From positions 310,001 to 374,000 of the forward strand of contig NZ_FORA01000001.1 in NCBI RefSeq assembly GCF_900113875.1: a DNA stretch of 64,000 nucleotides, read 5' to 3'. A model generated the notes under the pieces. The model worked only from the letters and a program-made list of their open reading frames with translations, made no database searches and had not been told where the DNA came from. Both the position numbers and the translations under genes were made by a program. Origin of the DNA: Jannaschia pohangensis. GTDB lineage: Bacteria > Pseudomonadota > Alphaproteobacteria > Rhodobacterales > Rhodobacteraceae. Below are positions 1 through 9,197 of the stretch, one piece after another; positions within the stretch are counted from its first letter, which is position 1, and every line of letters starts with the position of its first letter.

Positions 1-88
1 GGATCCGACCCTTGGCATCGGCCACCACGATCGCATCCACCGCCGCATCGAGCAGGGCATCGAGCAGGGCCGCATCCTCGTCCATCAT
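1..88 (-). CDS. PAS-domain protein, N-terminal fragment (cut by window edge)
   Basis: Only the first 29 codons lie in the window. The start at 88 (Met-Met-Asp-Glu-Asp) is chosen because GGAGAG stands about six bases upstream; an earlier ATG at 130 is possible. The peptide ends with DAAVDAIVVADAKGRI, the typical opening strand of a PAS sensor domain as found in FixL-like and other sensor kinases. It follows the M50 protease gene on the same strand by 67 bases and probably belongs to the same transcript. Whether a kinase, cyclase or transcription-factor domain follows cannot be seen. Confidence 0.6.
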   Translation of the reverse strand, partial: MMDEDAALLDALLDAAVDAIVVADAKGRI

Positions 89-155
89 CTGCAACTCTCC
101 GGTCGCCTCTGGTCGGTGCGAGGATGGCATCTTGGCCCCCGTCCGGCCAGTGGCT

Positions 156-1274
156 TCACCTGGCATGCTGCGCCAGCTCGGCCTTGAGCCGGACGCGAGC
201 CATCAGATCGCCAAGCGTCACGACCCCGACCAGCCGACCGCGGTCCAGCACCGCGAACTTGCGCTTGCCGGTCCGCACCATCCGGTCCAGCAGGTCGCCC
301 GCGTCCATGTTGGGGGCCAGCACATCGGCCGCCTGCATCGCCTGAAAGACGTCATCCACCCGCGTGTGCGGCCAATTCTCGCGCTCGATCCCCCGCACCG
401 TGGGCAGATCGACCACCCCGAGGAATCGCCCTGCCTCGACCACCGGCACGAAGGACACCGCATGGCGCAGCATCACGCCATCCACCAGGTCGGCAAGCGT
501 CAGAGACGGGTCGACCGAGACCGGATCGTGTTTCATCACCTGTCGGACGGTGCGCCCGGCCAGCGCCTCGGCCAGATCGACCCGCGACCGGGCGGCGCTT
601 GATGCGGTCAGGATGAACAGGGCCAGAAGGACAGGCCAGATGCCCACGACCCCGCTGCCCGACAGCACCTGAATGACGCCCAGACCAATCATCGCGAAGG
701 CGACCACATTGGACACCCCGCCCGCGATCCGTGTCGCCCCCGCCAGGTCGCGGCTGCGCCAAAGCCAGGCGCGCAGGACCCGCCCGCCATCGAGCGGAAA
801 GGCCGGAACCATGTTGAAGACCGCCAGAACAAGGTTGGCCAGCGCCACATAGCCCAGAACCACGACGACAAGGTCGGACAGGCCAAGCGCCGGGGCCGCC
901 CACCAGCCCAGTGCAAAGACCGCAGAAATCGCCAGGCTGGCAACCGGGCCCGCGATGGCCACGCGGAATTCGGTCCGCGCATCGGGCGGCTCGTCCCGCA
1001 ACTCCGCCACCCCGCCGAACAGGAACAGGGTGATCGAATTCACCCCCATGCCATGGGCCCGCGCGACGGTGGCATGGGCCAATTCGTGCAGGATCAGCGA
1101 TCCGAACAGCGCGAGCATCGACACAAGGGCCGCGGCCACCCGTTGCAACGCGTCCGTCGCAGGCAGAAGCGCCGGAACATACCCCTGACTCAACGACCAC
1201 GTCAGAAGTGCTGCGATCACGAACCAACTCGCATCAAGCCGGATCTCGATCCCCATGATCCGCGTCAGCCGCAT
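156..1274 (-). CDS. M50-family site-2-type intramembrane zinc metalloprotease with C-terminal CBS domains
   Basis: The 372-residue product has the zinc motif HELAH (H63, E64, H67) in a membrane segment and the second M50 motif FPLDGGR, whose Asp162 is the third ligand. Several hydrophobic helices precede a soluble part from about residue 235 holding two CBS repeats, which in this family sense adenine nucleotides. The ATG at 1274 is chosen because it follows the upstream stop codon by four bases and has GGGG upstream; a longer reading from 1316 would run into the upstream gene. The substrate is unknown. It is probably cotranscribed with the VIT1-family gene and could be induced with it by the FNR-type box. 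Confidence 0.85.
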   Translation of the reverse strand: MRLTRIMGIEIRLDASWFVIAALLTWSLSQGYVPALLPATDALQRVAAALVSMLALFGSLILHELAHATVARAHGMGVNSITLFLFGGVAELRDEPPDARTEFRVAIAGPVASLAISAVFALGWWAAPALGLSDLVVVVLGYVALANLVLAVFNMVPAFPLDGGRVLRAWLWRSRDLAGATRIAGGVSNVVAFAMIGLGVIQVLSGSGVVGIWPVLLALFILTASSAARSRVDLAEALAGRTVRQVMKHDPVSVDPSLTLADLVDGVMLRHAVSFVPVVEAGRFLGVVDLPTVRGIERENWPHTRVDDVFQAMQAADVLAPNMDAGDLLDRMVRTGKRKFAVLDRGRLVGVVTLGDLMARVRLKAELAQHAR

Positions 1275-1278
1275 CGAC

Positions 1279-1992
1279 CTACCCCACATTGAACAGACCT
1301 CCGACGAAATAGGCAATCGCGGCGGCCGTGCCGCCGATGACCAGCGTTTCCAATGCCGAAACCCACCAGCGGGCCAGCGACCATCGGCTCTTGATGGCGC
1401 CGATCAGTACGAAAGTTAGCGATGTGACCCCCGCCGAGACGGCAAAGGCATTCGGCACCGGCAGGATGAATGGCACGAGCGGCAGAAGGCCCGCTGCAAG
1501 GAACGCCAAAAAGGTGATCCATGCGGCCTTCACCGGCTCTGGTTCGGTCGGGCCCAGACCGTATTCGTCGGTCAGCATCGTGTCGATCCACATCGCCTGG
1601 TTCGAGGCGATGGCCTCGACCGCGCTGTCGAGGGCCTCTCCGGTCAGACCCTTGATGGCGAGGATCTGGCGCAATTCCTCGCGCTCGCCTTCGGGATAGA
1701 GGCGGATGTGCCGCTCCTCCCGCGCGCGCAGGCGCCCCCTGTGGTCGCCGTCGGCCTTGGTGCCCGCGTAATTGCCCGCCGCCATGGAAAACCCGTCGGC
1801 CAGGACATTCGCCAGCCCCAGAACCAGGATCGCCCCGACCGGCAGGCCCGATCCTGCGACCCCCGCGACAATGGCGAATGTGGTCACCGCGCCGTCGATT
1901 GCGCCATAGACCGCGTCGCGCAGATGGCCCGGCCCCTGCCGCCCGGCCAAACGGGCTGCGATTTCTTCGGGGCCATGTCCGTGGTCCTGCAT
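1279..1992 (-). CDS. VIT1/CCC1-family membrane protein (putative iron/manganese transporter)
   Basis: This 237-residue protein opens with a short His-containing segment and then a helix-rich motif, DAVYGAIDGAVTTFAIVAG, characteristic of VIT1/CCC1 vacuolar iron transporter relatives. It contains NVLADGFSMAAGNY in the second helix, a charged cytoplasmic loop (about residues 75-150), then three C-terminal membrane helices. Family members move Fe2+ or Mn2+ out of the cytosol; the bacterial role is inferred. ATG 1992 is preferred over upstream starts because AAGGA lies about eleven bases before it and homology begins just after. Its promoter region holds the FNR-type box at 2045-2058. Confidence 0.8.
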   Translation of the reverse strand: MQDHGHGPEEIAARLAGRQGPGHLRDAVYGAIDGAVTTFAIVAGVAGSGLPVGAILVLGLANVLADGFSMAAGNYAGTKADGDHRGRLRAREERHIRLYPEGEREELRQILAIKGLTGEALDSAVEAIASNQAMWIDTMLTDEYGLGPTEPEPVKAAWITFLAFLAAGLLPLVPFILPVPNAFAVSAGVTSLTFVLIGAIKSRWSLARWWVSALETLVIGGTAAAIAYFVGGLFNVG

Positions 1993-2016: not shown

Positions 2017-2086
2017 ATGATGGATCGAAACGAAACGCCGCGACTTGACGCACGTCAATGAGGGCGCCGCGCGAAAGGTGCATCCT
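2017..2086. promoter_or_regulatory. Divergent FNR-type regulated promoter (one box, two -10 elements)
   Basis: A perfect 14-bp inverted repeat, TTGACGCACGTCAA, lies at 2045-2058 and matches the TTGA-N6-TCAA core of FNR/FnrL sites. On the plus strand CATCCT (2081-2086) follows the box by exactly 22 bases. On the minus strand CATCAT (2022 down to 2017) follows by exactly 22 bases. Both positions equal the -10 hexamer of a class II activator promoter centred at -41.5. The plus side faces the phasin-like gene and the minus side the VIT1/M50 genes. Regulator identity is inference; box and spacing are seen directly. Confidence 0.65.
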
Positions 2087-2123
2087 TGGGCCGACCGATC
2101 CATCCATGACAGGGAGAAGGACG

Positions 2124-2462
2124 ATGACACAGCCCGACAAACAGACCACAGCCAGGACGAGCGCATCGGACGCATCGAACGTTGGCTTTGCCATGTCCCT
2201 GATGCCATGGTCGGTCGGCACGCGCATGGCGATGACCTGGCTCGAGGGGGCGACCCGGATTCAGGGCGAGTGGACCCGCTTCGTCGCCGAACGTCTGGCC
2301 AAGGACGCAGAGATGCAGCACGCGCTGCTCGCCTGCCAATCCCCGACCGAAGCCCGCCAGATGGGCACGGATTTCCTGCATTGCGCGGTGTCGGACTACC
2401 TCACCGAAACCGCGCGCATCACCGCGATGGGCTCGCATCTGTCCCAGGACGCGGGACTTTGA
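2124..2462 (+). CDS. Phasin-like protein
   Basis: A 112-residue, mostly helical protein without a signal peptide. The stretch from about residue 38 (amphipathic helix with ATRIQGEWTRFVAERLAKD) resembles phasins, the small surface proteins of polyhydroxyalkanoate granules, which also act as general stress proteins. ATG 2124 is preceded by AGGGAGAAGG and beats the upstream in-frame starts. The FNR-type box centred 72 bases upstream suggests expression at low oxygen. The family call is by pattern only; it could be another small helical stress protein. Confidence 0.6.
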   Translation: MTQPDKQTTARTSASDASNVGFAMSLMPWSVGTRMAMTWLEGATRIQGEWTRFVAERLAKDAEMQHALLACQSPTEARQMGTDFLHCAVSDYLTETARITAMGSHLSQDAGL

Positions 2463-2479
2463 CCCCGAAGGAGAACGCT

Positions 2480-2692
2480 ATGACACGGAATGTCGGATCC
2501 GCGGATATGATCATCCGCCTTGGCCTGGGGCTGGCGTTGATCGTCGCACCCCTGCTCAACGTCCCGCCGGTGTGGGCCAGTCCGGTGCTCGGCTATGGCG
2601 CGATGATCGTGGGCACGGTGCTTGTGCTGACGTCGCTCTTTCGGTTCTGCCCGCTCTACCGGGTTCTCGGGTTGAACACCTGCGGCATCTGA
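2480..2692 (+). CDS. DUF2892 (YgaP-like) two-helix inner-membrane protein
   Basis: This 70-residue protein begins MTRNVGSADMIIRLGLG and has two membrane helices, a pattern typical of DUF2892 with its C-terminal FCPLYRVLGLNTCG signature. The two Cys in CPLY and NTCG are conserved in the family. ATG 2480 is preceded by GAAGGAG. It lies 17 bases after the phasin-like gene, so the two probably share one transcript from the FNR-type promoter. DUF2892 modules often accompany rhodanese domains; no function is established for stand-alone copies. Confidence 0.8.
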   Translation: MTRNVGSADMIIRLGLGLALIVAPLLNVPPVWASPVLGYGAMIVGTVLVLTSLFRFCPLYRVLGLNTCGI

Positions 2693-2699
2693 GCCGCGG

Positions 2700-2741
2700 T
2701 TGACCGCCGTCAATGCCCCTGCCCCGCCGCGGGGGCATCGT
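2700..2741 (+). promoter_or_regulatory. FNR-type class II promoter of the arc operon
   Basis: TTGACCGCCGTCAA at 2700-2713 is a perfect TTGAC-N4-GTCAA palindrome. CATCGT at 2736-2741 follows after exactly 22 bases, the same geometry as the divergent site at 2045. A start point near 2748 would be expected, about 25 bases before the YfcC-family start codon. The arginine deiminase operon of Pseudomonas is switched on by the FNR homologue Anr, which supports the reading. Confidence 0.65.
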
Positions 2742-2772: not shown

Positions 2773-4209
2773 ATGACCGATGTCACACATCCAAGCCCGG
2801 AGCCGACCCGCACGGATCGCTTCCCCTCGGCCTTCACCATCCTCTTCGCGCTGGTGGCCTTGGTGGCGCTGGCCAGCTGGTTCGTGCCCGCGGGCGAATA
2901 CACCCGCGTGGCGAGCGAGGCCTTGGGCAAGGACGTTCCCGTTCCGGGCACCTACGCGACGGTTGCGGCCACGCCCCAGGGCCTCTGGGATGTTCTGCGC
3001 GCCCCGATTGCCGGGTTCTATGACCCCGACAGCTATGCCGCGAACGCCATCGACGTGTCGCTGTTCGTCCTCGTGATCGGCGGTTTCCTGGGTGTGGTGA
3101 ACGCCACCGGGGCAATCGACGCGGGCATCGGTGCGGCCATGGCGCGGATGCGCGGGCGGGAGAAATGGATGATCCCCGTCCTCATGGCGCTTTTTGCCTT
3201 GGGCGGCACGACCTATGGCATGGCCGAGGAAACGCTCGCCTTCTATGCCATCCTGATCCCTGTGATGATCGCCGCGGGCTATGATGCGCTGACCGGCGTC
3301 GCGGTCATCCTGCTCGGGGCCGGGATCGGGGTTCTGGGGTCGACCATCAACCCCTTTGCGACCACGATCGCCTCCAACGCAGCGGGCATTCCGTTCACCG
3401 ACGGGATCGGGCTTCGACTGGCGATCCTGGGCCTCGGCTGGGCGATCTGCGTCTGGTGGGTGATGCGCTATGCCGCGCGGGTCAAGGCCGATGAGAGCCG
3501 GTCGCTGGTCGCGTCCCGCGCCGCCGAGAATGAACGTCATTTCCTTCGGAGTGGCAGCGCGCGCGTGGTGCCGTTGACCACGAACCACCGCATCGTTCTG
3601 CTCCTCTTTGCCGTGACCTTCGCCGTAATGATCTGGGGTGTCGCAAGCCAGGGATGGTGGATGGCCGAGATGTCGATGCTCTTCCTGGCCGCAGCACTGG
3701 TGATCGGCGTGGCGGGCTGGGTCGGCGAAAAGCCCTTTGTCACCGCCTTCGTCGATGGTGCGCGCGACCTTCTGGGGGTCGCCCTGATCATCGGCCTCGC
3801 GCGGGGCATCGTCGTGGTCATGGACGCGGGTCACATGACCGATACGATCCTGCATTCCGCCGAAGGACTGGTCACCGGCGTCTCGCAGGTGGTCTATGTC
3901 AATGCGCTCTTCGCAATCGAGGCGGGGCTAAGCTTCATCGTGCCCTCCACCTCGGGGCTGGCCGTGCTGTCCATGCCGATCCTGGCCCCCGCCTCCGATT
4001 TCGCGGGTGTGGATCGGTCGCTGGCGGTCACGGCCTATCAATCCGCGTCGGGCCTCGTGAACCTGATCACGCCGACATCTGCCGTCGTTGTCGGCGCGCT
4101 GGCCATCGGACGGGTGCCCTATGACAAATGGCTGCGGTTCGTGGCCCCCCTTCTCGTGATCCTGGCCGTGCTCATCATGGGCGCGCTCAGCCTTGGAGCG
4201 ATGCTGTGA
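2773..4209 (+). CDS. YfcC-family membrane transporter, probable arginine:ornithine exchanger of the ADI operon
   Basis: The 478-residue product is a polytopic membrane protein with about twelve helices. It belongs to the YfcC/C4-dicarboxylate anaerobic carrier superfamily. Recognisable family segments are SWFVPAGEY near residue 38, [10 protein letters not shown] near residue 150 and [13 protein letters not shown] near residue 400. ATG 2773 has GGGAGGG upstream; the in-frame ATG upstream lacks a clear ribosome site. It is first in the operon before arcA, with which it overlaps. The exchange of external arginine for ornithine is inferred from position; the family also carries other substrates. 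Confidence 0.8.
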
Positions 4210-5417
4210 CGGCCTTCCCCGCCGTCCAGTCCGAGACCGGGCATCTGCGCAGTGTCATCGTCTGCGCGCCGGGACCTGCACAGGCGCGGCTGACCCCCTC
4301 CACCTGCGACGCGATGCTCTTTGATGATGTCATGTGGCTGGAGCAGGCGCAGACCGATCACCGACGATTCACCACCCTGCTCGAGGCAGAGGGCATCGAA
4401 GTGATCGACCTTCGGGACCTGTTGATCGACGTGCTGGCCATCGCCCCTGCGCGCAAGGCCCTGGTCGCGGCCCGGGTTACCGCCGACACCGTGGGCATCG
4501 GCCTGTGCGACGACCTGCGCGCCTGGTGCGACGATCTGGGCCCCGCGCGTCTTGCCGACCTTCTGATGGGCGGGCTGACGGTGGACGAAGCCCCGGATGT
4601 ATCGGGCCTTACGGCGCAGGTTCTGGGGCCCGAGGGCCTGCTGGTCGCCCCGCTGCCCAATCTGATGTTTCCGCGCGACAGCAGTCTTTGCGTCAATGGT
4701 GGCGTGATCCGGGGCACGATGCGCTATGCCGCGCGCGGCGGCGAGACGGCGATCCTGAAGGCCATTCACGACCACCACCCGCGCTTTCGCGAGGCCGCTC
4801 ACCCCTGGCCCGTGCCGGGACTGGCCCCACTCGAGGGGGGCGATGTCATGGTCCTGAGCCGCAGCACCCTTCTGATCGGCATGGGCGAACGGACGGCACC
4901 CCAGGCCGTGGGCCAGATGGCCCGCGCCCTGTTCGACGCGGGTCAGGTGCAGCGCGTCATCGCCTGCACCATGCCAAAGGGTCGGGCCTCCATGCATCTC
5001 GATACGGTATTCACCCTGTGTGACCGCGACCGTGCCACGGCCTATCCGGAGGTCGCCGAAGCGATCACCTGTCACAGCATCCGCCCCGCCTCCGCCCCCG
5101 GCGCCATCGACGTCACCGCCGAGACGACGCCGTTCCTGAACGTGGTGGCCGAGGCGCTTGGCCAGCCCGGCCTGCGCGTCATCGCCACGGGCGGCGACCG
5201 ATATCTGCGCGCGCGCGAACAATGGGACGACGGCAACAATGTCCTGGCCATCGGGCCGGGCAAGGTCCTGGCCTATGACCGCAACACCCGCACCAACACC
5301 CTTTTGCGCAAGGCCGGCATCGAGGTCATCACCTTCCCCGGCGGCGAACTCGGCCGGGGACGCGGCGGGCCACGCTGCCTGTCCTGTCCGCTGGTCCGCG
5401 ATGCGGCGGGCGACTGA
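4206..5417 (+). CDS. arcA: Arginine deiminase
   Basis: Converts L-arginine to citrulline and ammonia, the first step of the arginine deiminase pathway. The 403-residue protein shows the family motifs: NLMFPRD (substrate-binding FxRD), LEGGD, MHLDTVF with the catalytic His, and [12 protein letters not shown] near the C-terminus, where Cys391 is the expected nucleophile. The start is taken as GTG 4206 because it overlaps the transporter's stop codon (GTGA) and the homology starts right after; the ATG at 4128 lies well inside the transporter gene. It is followed by arcB and arcC. Confidence 0.92.
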
Positions 5418-5446: not shown

Positions 5447-6448
5447 ATGTCGTTCAATCTTCATGGACGCTCGCTGCTGACGCTGGCGGATTTCAAGGGC
5501 GCAGAGATCGCCCATCTTCTGAACCTTGCCGCAGACCTGAAGGCGGCCAAGGCGGCGGGCACCGAATTGCCCCGGCTTCAGGGGCGCGAAATCGCCCTGA
5601 TCTTCGAAAAGGACAGCACCCGCACCCGCGCCGGTTTCGAGGTCGCGGCCTTCGATCAGGGCGCGCATGTCACCTATCTGGGCCCGACCGGGTCGCACAT
5701 GGGCAAGAAGGAAAGCGTCAAGGACACGGCCCGCGTTCTGGGCCGCCTCTATGATGGGATTGAATTTCGCGGCCACGACCACGCCACGGTGGAAACCCTG
5801 GCGGAATGGTCCGGTGTCCCGGTCTACAACGGCCTGACGTACCGCTTTCACCCGACGCAGGCGCTGGCCGACCTGCTGACCATGGGCGAGGTGGCGGGCC
5901 ATGATCTTCGCGGCGTGGCCGCGTGTTTCCTGGGCGACGTCGGCAACAACGTGGCGGTGAGCCTTGCCATCGGAGCGGTGCGGATGGGGATGGACATGCG
6001 CCTGTGCGGTCCGCGCGCCCTCTGGCCGGACGATGCCATCCGCGCCGCGCTGACCGCCGATGCCCGGGCGTCCGGGGGATCGTTCCGTCTGACCGATGAT
6101 CCGACCGAGGGCATGGTCGGCGCGCGTTTCGTTCACACCGACGTCTGGGTTTCCATGGGCGAGGACGAGTCGCTCTGGCCCGCGCGGGTCGAGAGTTTGC
6201 GCCCCTACCGCGTCGACCTGGACATGATGCGGCGCACCGGGCGCGACGATGCGCGTTTCATGCATTGCCTTCCGGCCTTCCACGACGACCAGACCGAAAT
6301 CGGTGCCAGGCTTTGCGCGCAATTCGGACTGGACGGGATCGAGGTGTCGGACGAGGTCTTCGAAAGCCCCTGGTCCATCGTCTTCGACCAGGCCGAGAAC
6401 CGTGTTCACACCATCAAGGCGGTTCTCGTCGCCACCCTGGGCGGCTGA
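5447..6448 (+). CDS. arcB: Catabolic ornithine carbamoyltransferase
   Basis: The 333-residue enzyme phosphorolyses citrulline to ornithine and carbamoyl phosphate when working in the deiminase direction. It carries the carbamoyl-phosphate site STRTR (57-61), HPTQ (135-138), the ornithine-side motif HTDVWVSMGE (230-239) and HCLP (273-276). Length is normal for the family. It lies 29 bases after arcA with AAGGACA upstream of the ATG. The catabolic assignment rests on the operon position between arcA and arcC; the sequence alone could equally be the anabolic ArgF type. Confidence 0.92.
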   Translation: MSFNLHGRSLLTLADFKGAEIAHLLNLAADLKAAKAAGTELPRLQGREIALIFEKDSTRTRAGFEVAAFDQGAHVTYLGPTGSHMGKKESVKDTARVLGRLYDGIEFRGHDHATVETLAEWSGVPVYNGLTYRFHPTQALADLLTMGEVAGHDLRGVAACFLGDVGNNVAVSLAIGAVRMGMDMRLCGPRALWPDDAIRAALTADARASGGSFRLTDDPTEGMVGARFVHTDVWVSMGEDESLWPARVESLRPYRVDLDMMRRTGRDDARFMHCLPAFHDDQTEIGARLCAQFGLDGIEVSDEVFESPWSIVFDQAENRVHTIKAVLVATLGG

Positions 6449-6451
6449 CCC

Positions 6452-7354
6452 ATGCTGGTCGTCGCAGCCTTGGGGGGCAATGCCCTGCTCAAACGGGGCG
6501 AGCCATTGACGGCGCTGGCACAGCAGGCCAACGTTGCCCGTGCGGCCCGGGCCCTGGCCGGGATCCTGAAGGCCGGTCACGGCCTTGTCGTCACCCATGG
6601 CAACGGCCCGCAGATCGGGCTTCTGGCGATGCAGACGGATCCCTGGCCGCTTGATGTTCTGGGGGCGGAAACCGATGGCATGATCGGCTATGTGATCGAA
6701 CGGGAGCTGGAGAACGCGCTGGACCATGATCGCCCCGTCGCGACGCTTCTGACACAGGTTCTGGTCGATCCTGCCGATCCGGCATTTGCCGACCCCGTCA
6801 AGTTCGTCGGTCCCGTCTGGACCGAAGACGAGGCCCAGGCGCGGGCCCGGGCGAACGGCTGGACGGTCCGTCAGGACGGCGCGGGATGGCGACGCGTTGT
6901 CCCCTCGCCTCCGCCTCTGGATATTCCCGACCTTGCAGCGGCACGCCTGTTGCTCGACCACGGGGCCGTGGTGATTTGTGGCGGCGGCGGCGGCATCCCC
7001 GTCGCCCGCGGGCCGGACGGACGCCTGACGGGGGTCGAGGCGGTGGTCGACAAGGACAGCACCTCTGCCCTTCTGGCCCGGCGTCTGGGGGCGGATGCCT
7101 TACTTCTGCTGACCGACGTCGCCGGCGTGATGGCCGATTTCGGCACCGACCGCGCCCGGACGATCCTGCATCTGACACCGGACGAGGCCGAGGCGATGAC
7201 CCTCCCCGCCGGGTCCATGGCGCCCAAGGTCGCCGCCGCCGCCGACTTCGCCCGTCAGACCGGCGGCAACGCGTGGATCGGACGGCTGGAGGACGCAGTG
7301 GACATGCTGGACAGACGGGCAGGCACGCGCATCGGCGCAAGGCACGGTTCATGA
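6452..7354 (+). CDS. arcC: Carbamate kinase
   Basis: This 300-residue amino-acid-kinase-fold enzyme transfers the phosphate of carbamoyl phosphate to ADP, the ATP-yielding last step of the deiminase pathway. Motifs seen are ALGGNALLKRGE at the N-terminus, THGNGPQIG, VICGGGGGIPV, and VVDKDSTSALLA before the nucleotide region. It begins three bases after the arcB stop and its own stop overlaps the mlaE start (ATGA). ATG 6452 is the first start that does not enter arcB. Confidence 0.92.
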   Translation: MLVVAALGGNALLKRGEPLTALAQQANVARAARALAGILKAGHGLVVTHGNGPQIGLLAMQTDPWPLDVLGAETDGMIGYVIERELENALDHDRPVATLLTQVLVDPADPAFADPVKFVGPVWTEDEAQARARANGWTVRQDGAGWRRVVPSPPPLDIPDLAAARLLLDHGAVVICGGGGGIPVARGPDGRLTGVEAVVDKDSTSALLARRLGADALLLLTDVAGVMADFGTDRARTILHLTPDEAEAMTLPAGSMAPKVAAAADFARQTGGNAWIGRLEDAVDMLDRRAGTRIGARHGS

Positions 7355-8433
7355 GCGGTATCGACCTGCGCATTGCGGATGGCACGCTGCACCTGTCGGG
7401 CGACCTGTCGATTGCCCACGTCGGCACCGTCGCAGCGCCAGAGGACGGCACCGTTGCCCGGATCGAACTGTCACAGGTTGCCCGCCTCGACACAGCGGGG
7501 GCCTGGCTGGTTCTGGACCTTGCGCAGCGGTTCGGCGACGTGCCCGTGTCCGGGGCGACCGCGCCTCAGAACGACCTGATCGAAACCGTGCGCCGGAACC
7601 TGCCGCCGGACGTGCAGCCGCCCGAACGTCACACGCTGCGCAACCTGCTGATCCGTCTGGGCCACGCCGTCTGGGACACGGGCCGCGAGGCGCTGGCCCT
7701 GACCGCCTTTCTGGGTCAGGTCGTCGCCGAGATCCTGCGTCTTCTGCGCCATCCCGGGCGGCTTCGCGTCACTTCCATGGTCCACCACATGCAGGCGACT
7801 GGCCTCGATGCGGTGCCCATCGTGGTGCTCATGTCCTTCCTCATCGGCGTGGTCGTGGCGTTTCAGGGATCGACGCAGCTGGAGCAATTCGGGGCCGAGA
7901 TCTTCGTCGTCGACCTGATCGCCATTTCGGTCCTGCGCGAGCTTGGCATCCTGCTGACGGCCATCATCGTGGCGGGCCGGTCCGCCTCCGCGTTCACGGC
8001 GGCCATCGGGTCAATGAAGATGCGCGAAGAGATTGACGCCCTGCGCGCCCTGGGCCTTGATCCGATCACGGTGCTGGTGGCGCCGCGCATTCTGGCGCTG
8101 GTCCTGATGCTTCCGATCCTGTGCATTCTGGCGAATGTCGCGGGCCTGACCGGCGGGGCAATGATGGCCTGGATGGACCTTGGCATCGCGCCCGCCGCCT
8201 TTGCCGAACGGATCGCGACCCAGATCGGCCCCTGGCACCTGGCCGTCGGCCTCATCAAGGCGCCGGTCTTCGCGCTGATCGTCGGGGTCGTCGGCTGCCG
8301 AAACGGGTTGCGGGTGGGCGGCGACGCCGAAAGCCTGGGTGCGCAGACGTCCGCGGCGGTGGTGGCGTCGATCTTCCTCGTGATCGTGGCGGACGCGGTC
8401 TTTTCGGTGTTCTTCGCCGTGGTGGGGGTCTGA
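7351..8433 (+). CDS. mlaE: MlaE-type ABC permease with N-terminal STAS-like domain
   Basis: The 360-residue protein joins an N-terminal STAS-like part (about 1-95, containing LSQVARLDTAGAW) to a MlaE permease core of five or so membrane helices. The core shows VVLMSFLIGVVVAFQG, LRELGILLTAIIVAGR and RLALVLMLP-like stretches. MlaE forms the membrane part of a phospholipid transporter for outer-membrane lipid balance; the STAS part stands in for a separate MlaB. The start codon overlaps the arcC stop (ATGA), an unexpected operon junction. The next gene overlaps by one base. Confidence 0.88.
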   Translation: MSGIDLRIADGTLHLSGDLSIAHVGTVAAPEDGTVARIELSQVARLDTAGAWLVLDLAQRFGDVPVSGATAPQNDLIETVRRNLPPDVQPPERHTLRNLLIRLGHAVWDTGREALALTAFLGQVVAEILRLLRHPGRLRVTSMVHHMQATGLDAVPIVVLMSFLIGVVVAFQGSTQLEQFGAEIFVVDLIAISVLRELGILLTAIIVAGRSASAFTAAIGSMKMREEIDALRALGLDPITVLVAPRILALVLMLPILCILANVAGLTGGAMMAWMDLGIAPAAFAERIATQIGPWHLAVGLIKAPVFALIVGVVGCRNGLRVGGDAESLGAQTSAAVVASIFLVIVADAVFSVFFAVVGV

Positions 8434-9197
8434 TGGACGATCCCGTGATCCGGGTGCGCGGGCTTGCCACGCGGTTCGGCGACCATGTCGTCCACGAAGG
8501 GCTGGACCTCGATGTGGGGCGCGGCGAAATCCTGGGTGTCATCGGCGGGTCGGGCACCGGCAAGTCGGTCCTGCTGCGTCAGATCGTGGGCCTGCTGGAG
8601 CCTGCCGAAGGCGAGATCGAGGTTCTGGGCCAACCCGTTCGAGACACCAGCCCCGAGGAATTCCGCGACTTGCGGCGTCGATGGGGGGTGATGTTCCAGG
8701 GTGGTGCGCTGTTCTCCTCCTTGTCCGTCCGCGAAAACGTCGAGGCTCCGATGCGCGAACAGATGGATCTGCCCGACGACCTGCGTCGCAAGCTGGCGGC
8801 GATCAAGGTCCGTATGGTCGGCCTGCCCGATGATGCGATGGACAAGCCGCCCTCGGCCCTGTCGGGCGGCATGCGCAAGCGCGCGGGGTTTGCCCGGGCC
8901 ATCGCGCTCGACCCCGAGATCGTCTTTCTGGACGAGCCGACCGCCGGGCTGGACCCGATCGGGGCCGCCGCCCTTGATGTTCTGGTGCGCCAGTTGCGCG
9001 ATGCCCTTGGACTTACGGTCTTTCTCGTGACCCACGATCTCGATACGCTGCACGCGATCTGCGACCGGGTCGCCGTTCTGGCCGAGCGGCGTGTGCTGGC
9101 GACCGGCACGCTCGACGAATTGCGCGACCTGCGACACGAGTGGTTGCAGGCGTATCTGGGCGGCCCACGCGGGCGCGCCGCACGGGGAGAGCCATAG
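8433..9197 (+). CDS. mlaF: MlaF-type ABC transporter ATPase
   Basis: A 254-residue ATPase subunit with Walker A GGSGTGKS (about 38-45), Q-loop FQGGALFSSLSV, signature LSGGM, Walker B IVFLDEPTAGLDP and H-loop THDL. The FQGGALFSSLTV-like stretch is typical of the Mla/Ttg2A branch. ATG 8433 shares a base with the mlaE stop (TGATG), so translation is coupled. It drives the lipid transporter formed with MlaE and the MCE protein encoded next. Confidence 0.9.
   Translation: MDDPVIRVRGLATRFGDHVVHEGLDLDVGRGEILGVIGGSGTGKSVLLRQIVGLLEPAEGEIEVLGQPVRDTSPEEFRDLRRRWGVMFQGGALFSSLSVRENVEAPMREQMDLPDDLRRKLAAIKVRMVGLPDDAMDKPPSALSGGMRKRAGFARAIALDPEIVFLDEPTAGLDPIGAAALDVLVRQLRDALGLTVFLVTHDLDTLHAICDRVAVLAERRVLATGTLDELRDLRHEWLQAYLGGPRGRAARGEP

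Follow-up and report, generated by a model that had tools for sequence, protein, structure and literature searches.

Probable anaeroboxes of a putative low-oxygen island in Jannaschia pohangensis and their proposed control by relatives of hFixL, FxkR and FixK together with FnrL

Two FNR-type boxes in a 64 kb stretch of the Jannaschia pohangensis genome (the window) raise the question of which genes they serve and which activator reads them. The original prediction described them as perfect TTGA-N6-TCAA palindromes with a CATC[C/G/A]T hexamer exactly 22 bases from the box edge in three directions, and proposed three class II promoters under FnrL. Both palindromes are exact at their predicted places, and all three hexamers were located as described, each facing a gene (Table 1). 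With the box centred at -41.5, 22 bases before the -10, the arrangement has the class II geometry of FNR/FixK-type activators. Leaders counted from the predicted start points are 18, 31 and 25 bases long, each with a ribosome site. At the fourth box edge, the minus side of box 2, the 22-base position holds GTTCAA and no CATCNT hexamer; box 2 was rejected as a divergent promoter because this side has neither a hexamer nor a gene start. Boxes 1 and 2 are the only exact matches to TTGA-N6-TCAA in the 64 kb. Shuffled windows held a mean of 0.38 exact boxes and reached two or more in 4 of 100 shuffles, so that the box count by itself is just mildly unusual and was not used as evidence on its own.

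Table 1. Boxes, hexamers and genes of the island; plain numbers are window positions
Feature	Position	Strand	Remarks
Perfect box	C6:304164		before universal stress protein gene; just upstream of window
Perfect box	C6:306488		before DUF2267 gene (Pfam); TATCCT exactly 22 bases away; just upstream of window
FixK-like activator	C6:307012-307668		inside island; Crp/Fnr domains, ETVSR helix
OmpR-type FxkR-like regulator	C6:307836-308549		adjoins FixK-like gene and kinase
Hybrid FixL-like kinase gene, start part	1..166	-	start codon at 166; rest upstream of window, C6:308565-310000
M50 intramembrane protease with CBS domains	156..1316 (start 1316 or 1274)	-	Pfam; overlaps/abuts VIT1, overlaps kinase gene
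VIT1/CCC1-family transporter	1279..1992	-	first gene of minus operon; Pfam VIT1 9e-61
-10-like hexamer CATCAT	2022-2017	-	22 bases from box 1; predicted start point ~2010; VIT1 footprint (54 boxes)
Anaerobox 1, TTGACGCACGTCAA	2045-2058		exact TTGA-N6-TCAA; common to two divergent promoters
-10-like hexamer CATCCT	2081-2086	+	22 bases from box 1; predicted start point ~2093
Phasin-like protein	2124..2462	+	Pfam Phasin_2 0.0015, below cut-off
YgaP-like TM (DUF2892) protein	2480..2692	+	Pfam 2e-19
Anaerobox 2, TTGACCGCCGTCAA	2700-2713		exact TTGA-N6-TCAA; upstream of arcD; same-place box in L043, TTGATAAGCATCAA
-10-like hexamer CATCGT	2736-2741	+	22 bases from box 2; predicted start point ~2748
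arcD-like antiporter	2773..4209	+	Pfam DcuC; YfcC-like, under that NCBIfam cut-off
arcA, arginine deiminase	4206..5417	+	family match
arcB/argF, ornithine carbamoyltransferase	5447..6448	+	family match
arcC, carbamate kinase (amino acid kinase family)	6452..7354	+	family match
MlaE permease with N-terminal extension	7351..8433	+	overlaps arcC by four bases
ABC ATPase, likely permease partner	8433..9197	+	family match

The VIT1/M50 operon stands as a predicted target on the minus side of box 1, and the PAS protein named with it in the original prediction turned out to be the start of the gene for a hybrid FixL-like kinase. Most of the regulatory part of the island, namely the kinase body and the FxkR-like and FixK-like genes, lies outside the window and was thus out of reach of the original prediction. 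On the plus side the first protein was not accepted as a phasin by Pfam, its match being below the cut-off; its relatives in L118 and L101 match Phasin_2 at 1e-10 and 2e-11. Downstream of the arc genes, the four-base overlap of arcC and mlaE (7351-7354) suggests that translation of the genes for arginine fermentation is coupled to that of the lipid transport genes. The mlaE-ABC pair directly follows phasin-DUF2892 in L042 and L169 and directly follows the phasin gene in L041, and no arc genes were found between phasin and mlaE-ABC in these three loci, so the arc genes were either inserted between them or lost. This gene order supports the idea that a lipid transporter and an intramembrane protease are jointly controlled, and we regard joint control of the MlaE-type transporter and the M50 protease as a plausible prediction.

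The geometry can be followed in relatives of VIT1, for which 80 Rhodobacteraceae loci out of 331 relatives were used. The closest ones come from Jannaschia species (72-75%), and the loci are not independent because the set is rich in Ruegeria and Marivita. Leaving out the masked locus L043 gave 79 upstream regions of 150 bases, 55 of which contain a box, perfect in 12 and with a single mismatch in 43; the means over 200 shuffles were 0.125 perfect and 3.4 one-mismatch boxes. A box lies 31-110 bases before the VIT1 start in 54 of the 80 loci and there is none in the other 26, one of which is masked. At spacing 22 downstream of these 54 boxes, position 2 of the -10 is A in 53, and the commonest bases spell CATAAT. 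The pattern [TC]A-N3-T occurs at this spacing in 29 of the 54, and at any other spacing from 10 to 35 in at most six. Judged from the aligned sequences, the box-hexamer footprint upstream of VIT1 is that of class II geometry.

Relatives of arcD are patchier: they were found in four of 20 genomes of the genus (broken in one of these) and in 34 of 295 genomes of the family. The arc operon was rejected as a fixed part of the island, as L041 and L042 lack it next to VIT1, while L040 has a reduced form and L167 a broken one. Its decay can be seen in L040 (8050-9330), which keeps arcC and an arcB remnant, and in L167 (3490-7140), where arcA and arcC are in pieces and arcD is shortened. We compared 34 arcD upstream regions of 300 bases, from 29 family loci plus L120, L122, L043, L118 and L167, with four of the 34 family genomes providing no locus. 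Nine regions have a perfect box and nine a one-mismatch box, compared with 0.1 and 1.6 in shuffles of 33 regions (L167, with its broken arcD, left out). An anaerobox is not present at every arcD: even with one mismatch allowed, 16 of the 34 regions have none. Among the 24 arcD boxes, [TC]A-N3-T was found at spacing 21 or 22 in ten and at any other spacing in at most one. The exact geometry, the short leaders and the footprints upstream of both VIT1 and arcD relatives thus agree with the three class II promoters predicted for these targets.

The whole genome (3.73 Mb) contains 30 TTGA-N6-TCAA places, versus 13 for the reversed pattern, and four of the perfect boxes fall within 9 kb in the island. 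Among the 60 edges of the 30 boxes, [TC]A-N3-T at spacing 22 was found at five of 20 gene-directed edges and at one of the 40 others. The directed edges were assigned by hand, leaving out those less than 30 or more than 160 bases from a start, and near fnrL (L024), where the simple gene caller went wrong, four edges were also counted as directed. All six spacing-22 edges are in the island, so this spacing is no rule for the boxes of this genome, and we rejected it as a genome-wide rule. The hexamers could be chance matches and the boxes class I or repressor sites; in favour of this, CATCNT is identical to TATAAT at only 3-4 of six positions, a weak -10, and most other boxes of the genome do not have the 22 spacing. 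The VIT1 footprint at exactly 22 and the arcD footprint at 21 or 22 are both hard to get by chance, and we consider this explanation very improbable. Elsewhere in the genome, two perfect anaeroboxes stand 9 bases apart (L007, C6:714457-714470 and 714480-714493) between divergent oxidoreductase-like and TetR-like genes, the gene names being our own reading. The related island of Sulfitobacter aestuariivivens (L118, 6242-20056) has eight perfect anaeroboxes in ~14 kb, two of them before arcD. A pst-phoU-phoB-like phosphate cluster, also by our own reading, precedes the universal stress protein gene by about 2 kb (L016:1-4423).

If the boxes are promoters elements of class II, the regulatory genes of the island bear on what reads them. 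The kinase (C6:308565-310166) consists of a FixL-type PAS domain, a kinase core and a C-terminal receiver. Its PAS domain matches FixL crystal sequences (1dp6, 6e-21) and keeps the aligned His and the Arg of GxGR, which we take to be the heme ligand and the oxygen contact, respectively. As comparison plasmid we used pRL9 of Rhizobium johnstonii 3841, whose hFixL9, FxkR9 and FixK9 genes (PMC7888657) were identified by order and coordinates, and best matches were determined one way over a whole genome, from Rhizobium to this genome. The kinase is 45.9% identical to hFixL9 over 506 amino acids and ranks first among the 20 matches of hFixL9 in this genome. It scores 155.7 bits against the FixL equivalog NF041777 (cut-off 850), a model of Rhizobium FixL and not of hybrid FixL; by its domains the kinase looks like a hybrid FixL. 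The adjacent regulator is of OmpR/PhoB type, lies beside the fixK-like gene and is 45.9% identical to FxkR9 over 231 amino acids, being the best of 24 matches of FxkR9 in this one direction. In the plasmid collection its best matches are from Sulfitobacter, Tropicibacter and Terrarubrum. A kinase match at E 1e-110 was found in 31 of 295 sampled family genomes and 30 loci were read, in 26 of which, equal to 26 of the 295 genomes, the regulator is adjacent. Not every kinase match was accepted as hFixL, as L205, L228, L229 and L232 have no adjacent regulator.

The island also encodes a Crp/Fnr activator of its own. In Crp/Fnr proteins, reading of TTGA follows a recognition-helix rule, and this protein and ten relatives (11 of 11 aligned) all carry the ETVSR helix, as FnrL does, and have no N-terminal Cys cluster. 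It is 38% identical to FixK9b over 178 amino acids. Its best-scoring model is the Caulobacter FixK equivalog NF050806, at 111.9 bits with a cut-off of 300, for which reason we call it FixK-like; Crp/Fnr domains, helix, absence of N-terminal Fe-S cysteines and a K-box-like repeat upstream make it a FixK in the broad sense. A Cys is conserved in the sensor domain of all 11 FixK-like proteins (motif D-C-x-[AV]-[LI]; L016:9012-9668, minus strand, and ten relatives). FnrL does not have it, and it is a possible redox site; oxidation control is described for Bradyrhizobium FixK2 (PMC9104804).

The repeat upstream of the fixK-like gene points in the same direction. R. etli FxkR binds GTTACA-N4-GTTACA upstream of fixK, according to the sections used of PMC4999443 and PMC7888657, and pRL9 has this K-box with no and one mismatch before its two fixK genes. 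In this genome GCGACA-N4-GCTACA-N4-GATACA is found at C6:307736-307761, a K-box with two mismatches. A sense-strand K-box with at most two mismatches precedes the fixK-like gene in eight of 11 loci, about 76-114 bases before the start (shuffles 0.03); the remaining three loci have three, three and four mismatches, and the last of them, L170, has no regulator gene nearby. Among the 26 family loci with an adjacent regulator, which were counted by hand while the shuffle comparison covers the 11-locus set alone, 19 have a K-box with at most two mismatches and 22 with at most three, and it is perfect once (L221).

FnrL, which the original prediction named as regulator, is encoded at C8:243195, between cbb3-oxidase and hemN genes by our own reading. 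The protein has the N-terminal cysteines and reaches 395 bits against the NCBIfam FnrL cut-off of 300. The boxes might therefore be FnrL sites alone, with the FixK-like regulator acting elsewhere or weakly. The form of the boxes is also that of the FnrL sites published for R. capsulatus and R. sphaeroides, including a TTGCG half-site at hemN. Ten of ten tested genomes of Ruegeria, Sedimentitalea, Litoreibacter and Phaeobacter keep the VIT1 box with at most one mismatch, and a frequent form of it there, TTGATCTGACGCAA, common in Ruegeria, resembles the reverse complement of the FnrL hemN site TTGCGCAGGATCAA. In the same ten genomes (L113 was left out of this comparison) there was no kinase match covering the FixL-like PAS at E 1e-60, the matches beginning at residue 115 or later. 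FixK is thus not needed for the VIT1 box in general; FnrL likely suffices in those ten genomes, with FixK perhaps as an addition in genomes that have the island. Against FnrL as the only reader of the boxes in the island stand the ETVSR activator under its K-box-like repeat, the clustering of the four perfect boxes and the linkage of arcD boxes to the kinase. Where arcD lies within ~15 kb of the kinase its box is perfect in six of six loci, versus three of 27 unlinked ones (Fisher 7.6e-5), a comparison in which the linked loci were chosen by hand (L120, which is the finding itself, L043 and L118, which come from the VIT1 set outside the 295 genomes, and L173, L177 and L180), the unlinked ones were judged by the kinase match list alone (L122 being outside that sample of 295) and L167 was left out. 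The letters of the boxes alone cannot separate the two activators. arcD and the kinase co-occur in eight of the 295 genomes (P 0.015), including this genome and G160, which has no adjacent regulator. On balance control by FnrL alone seems unlikely, and FnrL as the regulator is a probably incomplete answer, given that the island has its own FixK-like activator and relatives of hFixL and FxkR.

Five Crp/Fnr proteins of the genome are over the Pfam cut-off, and D. shibae regulators of Dnr type share TTGA-type sites. Another of the five might read the boxes in response to nitric oxide, the signal of Dnr proteins, for example C6:1010409, which has an HTVSR helix and by our own reading lies beside a blue copper gene. 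No denitrification gene is among the island genes identified, and the local hFixL/FixK pair fits the neighbourhood better, which leaves a Dnr-like reader with very little probability.

We consider it likely that the boxes are anaeroboxes of a low-oxygen island under an hFixL-FxkR-FixK circuit plus FnrL, a judgement slightly tempered by the one-way best matches to Rhizobium and by the four kinase loci lacking the regulator. The proposal is built on sequence, geometry, conservation, homology and gene overlaps, from which we infer oxygen binding, phosphotransfer, DNA binding, activation and feedback. The hybrid heme-PAS kinase (hFixL-like) would sense falling oxygen and phosphorylate the adjacent OmpR-type FxkR-like regulator, which would bind the K-box and switch on the FixK-like activator. 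FixK, joined by FnrL when oxygen is nearly gone, would then bind TTGA-N6-TCAA at -41.5 for class II activation. Box 1 would drive VIT1-M50-hFixL on the minus strand (for handling of iron or manganese, proteolysis in the membrane and the sensor) and phasin-DUF2892 on the plus strand, and box 2 would drive arcDABC, with transcription probably continuing into the genes of the MlaE-type lipid transporter.

As the VIT1, M50 and kinase genes overlap one another or almost do, the minus promoter of box 1 should also drive the kinase. Box 1 would in this way probably close a loop, with positive feedback on the sensor as the proposed outcome. In 18 of the 30 kinase loci, the 1.5 kb upstream of the kinase hold at least one perfect anaerobox, 22 boxes in total against none for the reversed pattern, and all 18 loci are among the 26 with an adjacent regulator. 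The other 12 loci have no perfect box in this range, including this genome, in which the box is 1.9 kb upstream, before VIT1. The commonest hexamer spacing of the 22 boxes is 21 (eight boxes), spacing 22 being found in two, and some of the boxes may belong to genes lying between box and kinase. In L169, which has no VIT1 and M50 there, the box stands directly between kinase and phasin genes, and [TC]A-N3-T at spacing 22 is found on neither side of it. Control of a sensor gene by FixK has a precedent: FixK sites before fixLJ are reported for Caulobacterales (PMC4999443).

Boxes of this form, their geometry and the control of arc operons by FNR-type proteins are of kinds already known. In Pseudomonas, Anr controls arcDABC from an FNR-type box before the operon; here the arc operon is in the island and may be read by FixK too. 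The abstract of PMC12403760 expands the name Anr in keeping with that control. The closest known system is the hFixL-FxkR-FixK cascade of Rhizobium leguminosarum 3841 and R. etli, as described in the sections used of PMC7888657 and PMC4999443. It likewise has adjacent genes for a hybrid FixL-type kinase, an OmpR-type regulator and a cysteine-free FixK-like activator, a K-box before fixK, anaeroboxes at its targets and an FNR-type protein, here the likely second input. The host family is different, Rhodobacteraceae instead of Rhizobiaceae, and the island neighbours are usp, DUF2267, VIT1, M50, phasin, arc and MlaE-ABC genes, whereas the Rhizobium cascade goes with fixNOQP. Here the kinase is in an anaerobox-led operon, whereas strain 3841 has fixK9a-hfixL9 with a K-box (PMC7888657, same sections), and the K-box is degenerate, with three repeats in some loci, compared with that of Rhizobium. 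In R. leguminosarum the cascade acts at 1% oxygen and FnrN near anoxia at the same boxes, by the same part of PMC7888657, and we propose by analogy that the two inputs may be divided here as well, with FixK first and FnrL near anoxia. The FnrL regulon of Rhodobacter sphaeroides and R. capsulatus (PMC4263372, PMC4634722, in the parts used) has the same box, with usp, cco, dksA and fnrL among its targets; the words arginine, phasin, nodulin and VIT1 are absent from the main texts of both papers. The Burkholderia lxa locus is also a low-oxygen island rich in stress proteins in which the authors implicate a FixK homologue, and its gene content differs as far as seen in PMC6127331.

A comparison of 50 alphaproteobacterial genomes in 2016 has hFixL-FxkR-FixKf arising in Rhizobiaceae and only FnrN in Rhodobacterales (PMC4999443, section consulted), and we found no report of an hFixL-FxkR-FixK cascade in Rhodobacteraceae in the open-licence literature. 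We put forward, tentatively, that Rhodobacteraceae possess all parts of an hFixL-FxkR-FixK system that is unconnected with nitrogen fixation and in which, by rewiring, FixK activates its own oxygen sensor, a self-reinforcing switch that would prime the cell for anoxia. If true, iron handling, membrane proteolysis, lipid transport, phasin and arginine fermentation would be jointly switched on, and FnrL would take over without oxygen. For VIT1-type transporters, the conserved promoter suggests control by oxygen and so opens their role to testing. The adjacent pair of hybrid-FixL-like kinase and FxkR-like regulator in the family genomes sampled, mostly with a K-box-like repeat, shifts where two-stage oxygen sensing is expected, and free-living strains with the island offer tests of it without a plant.
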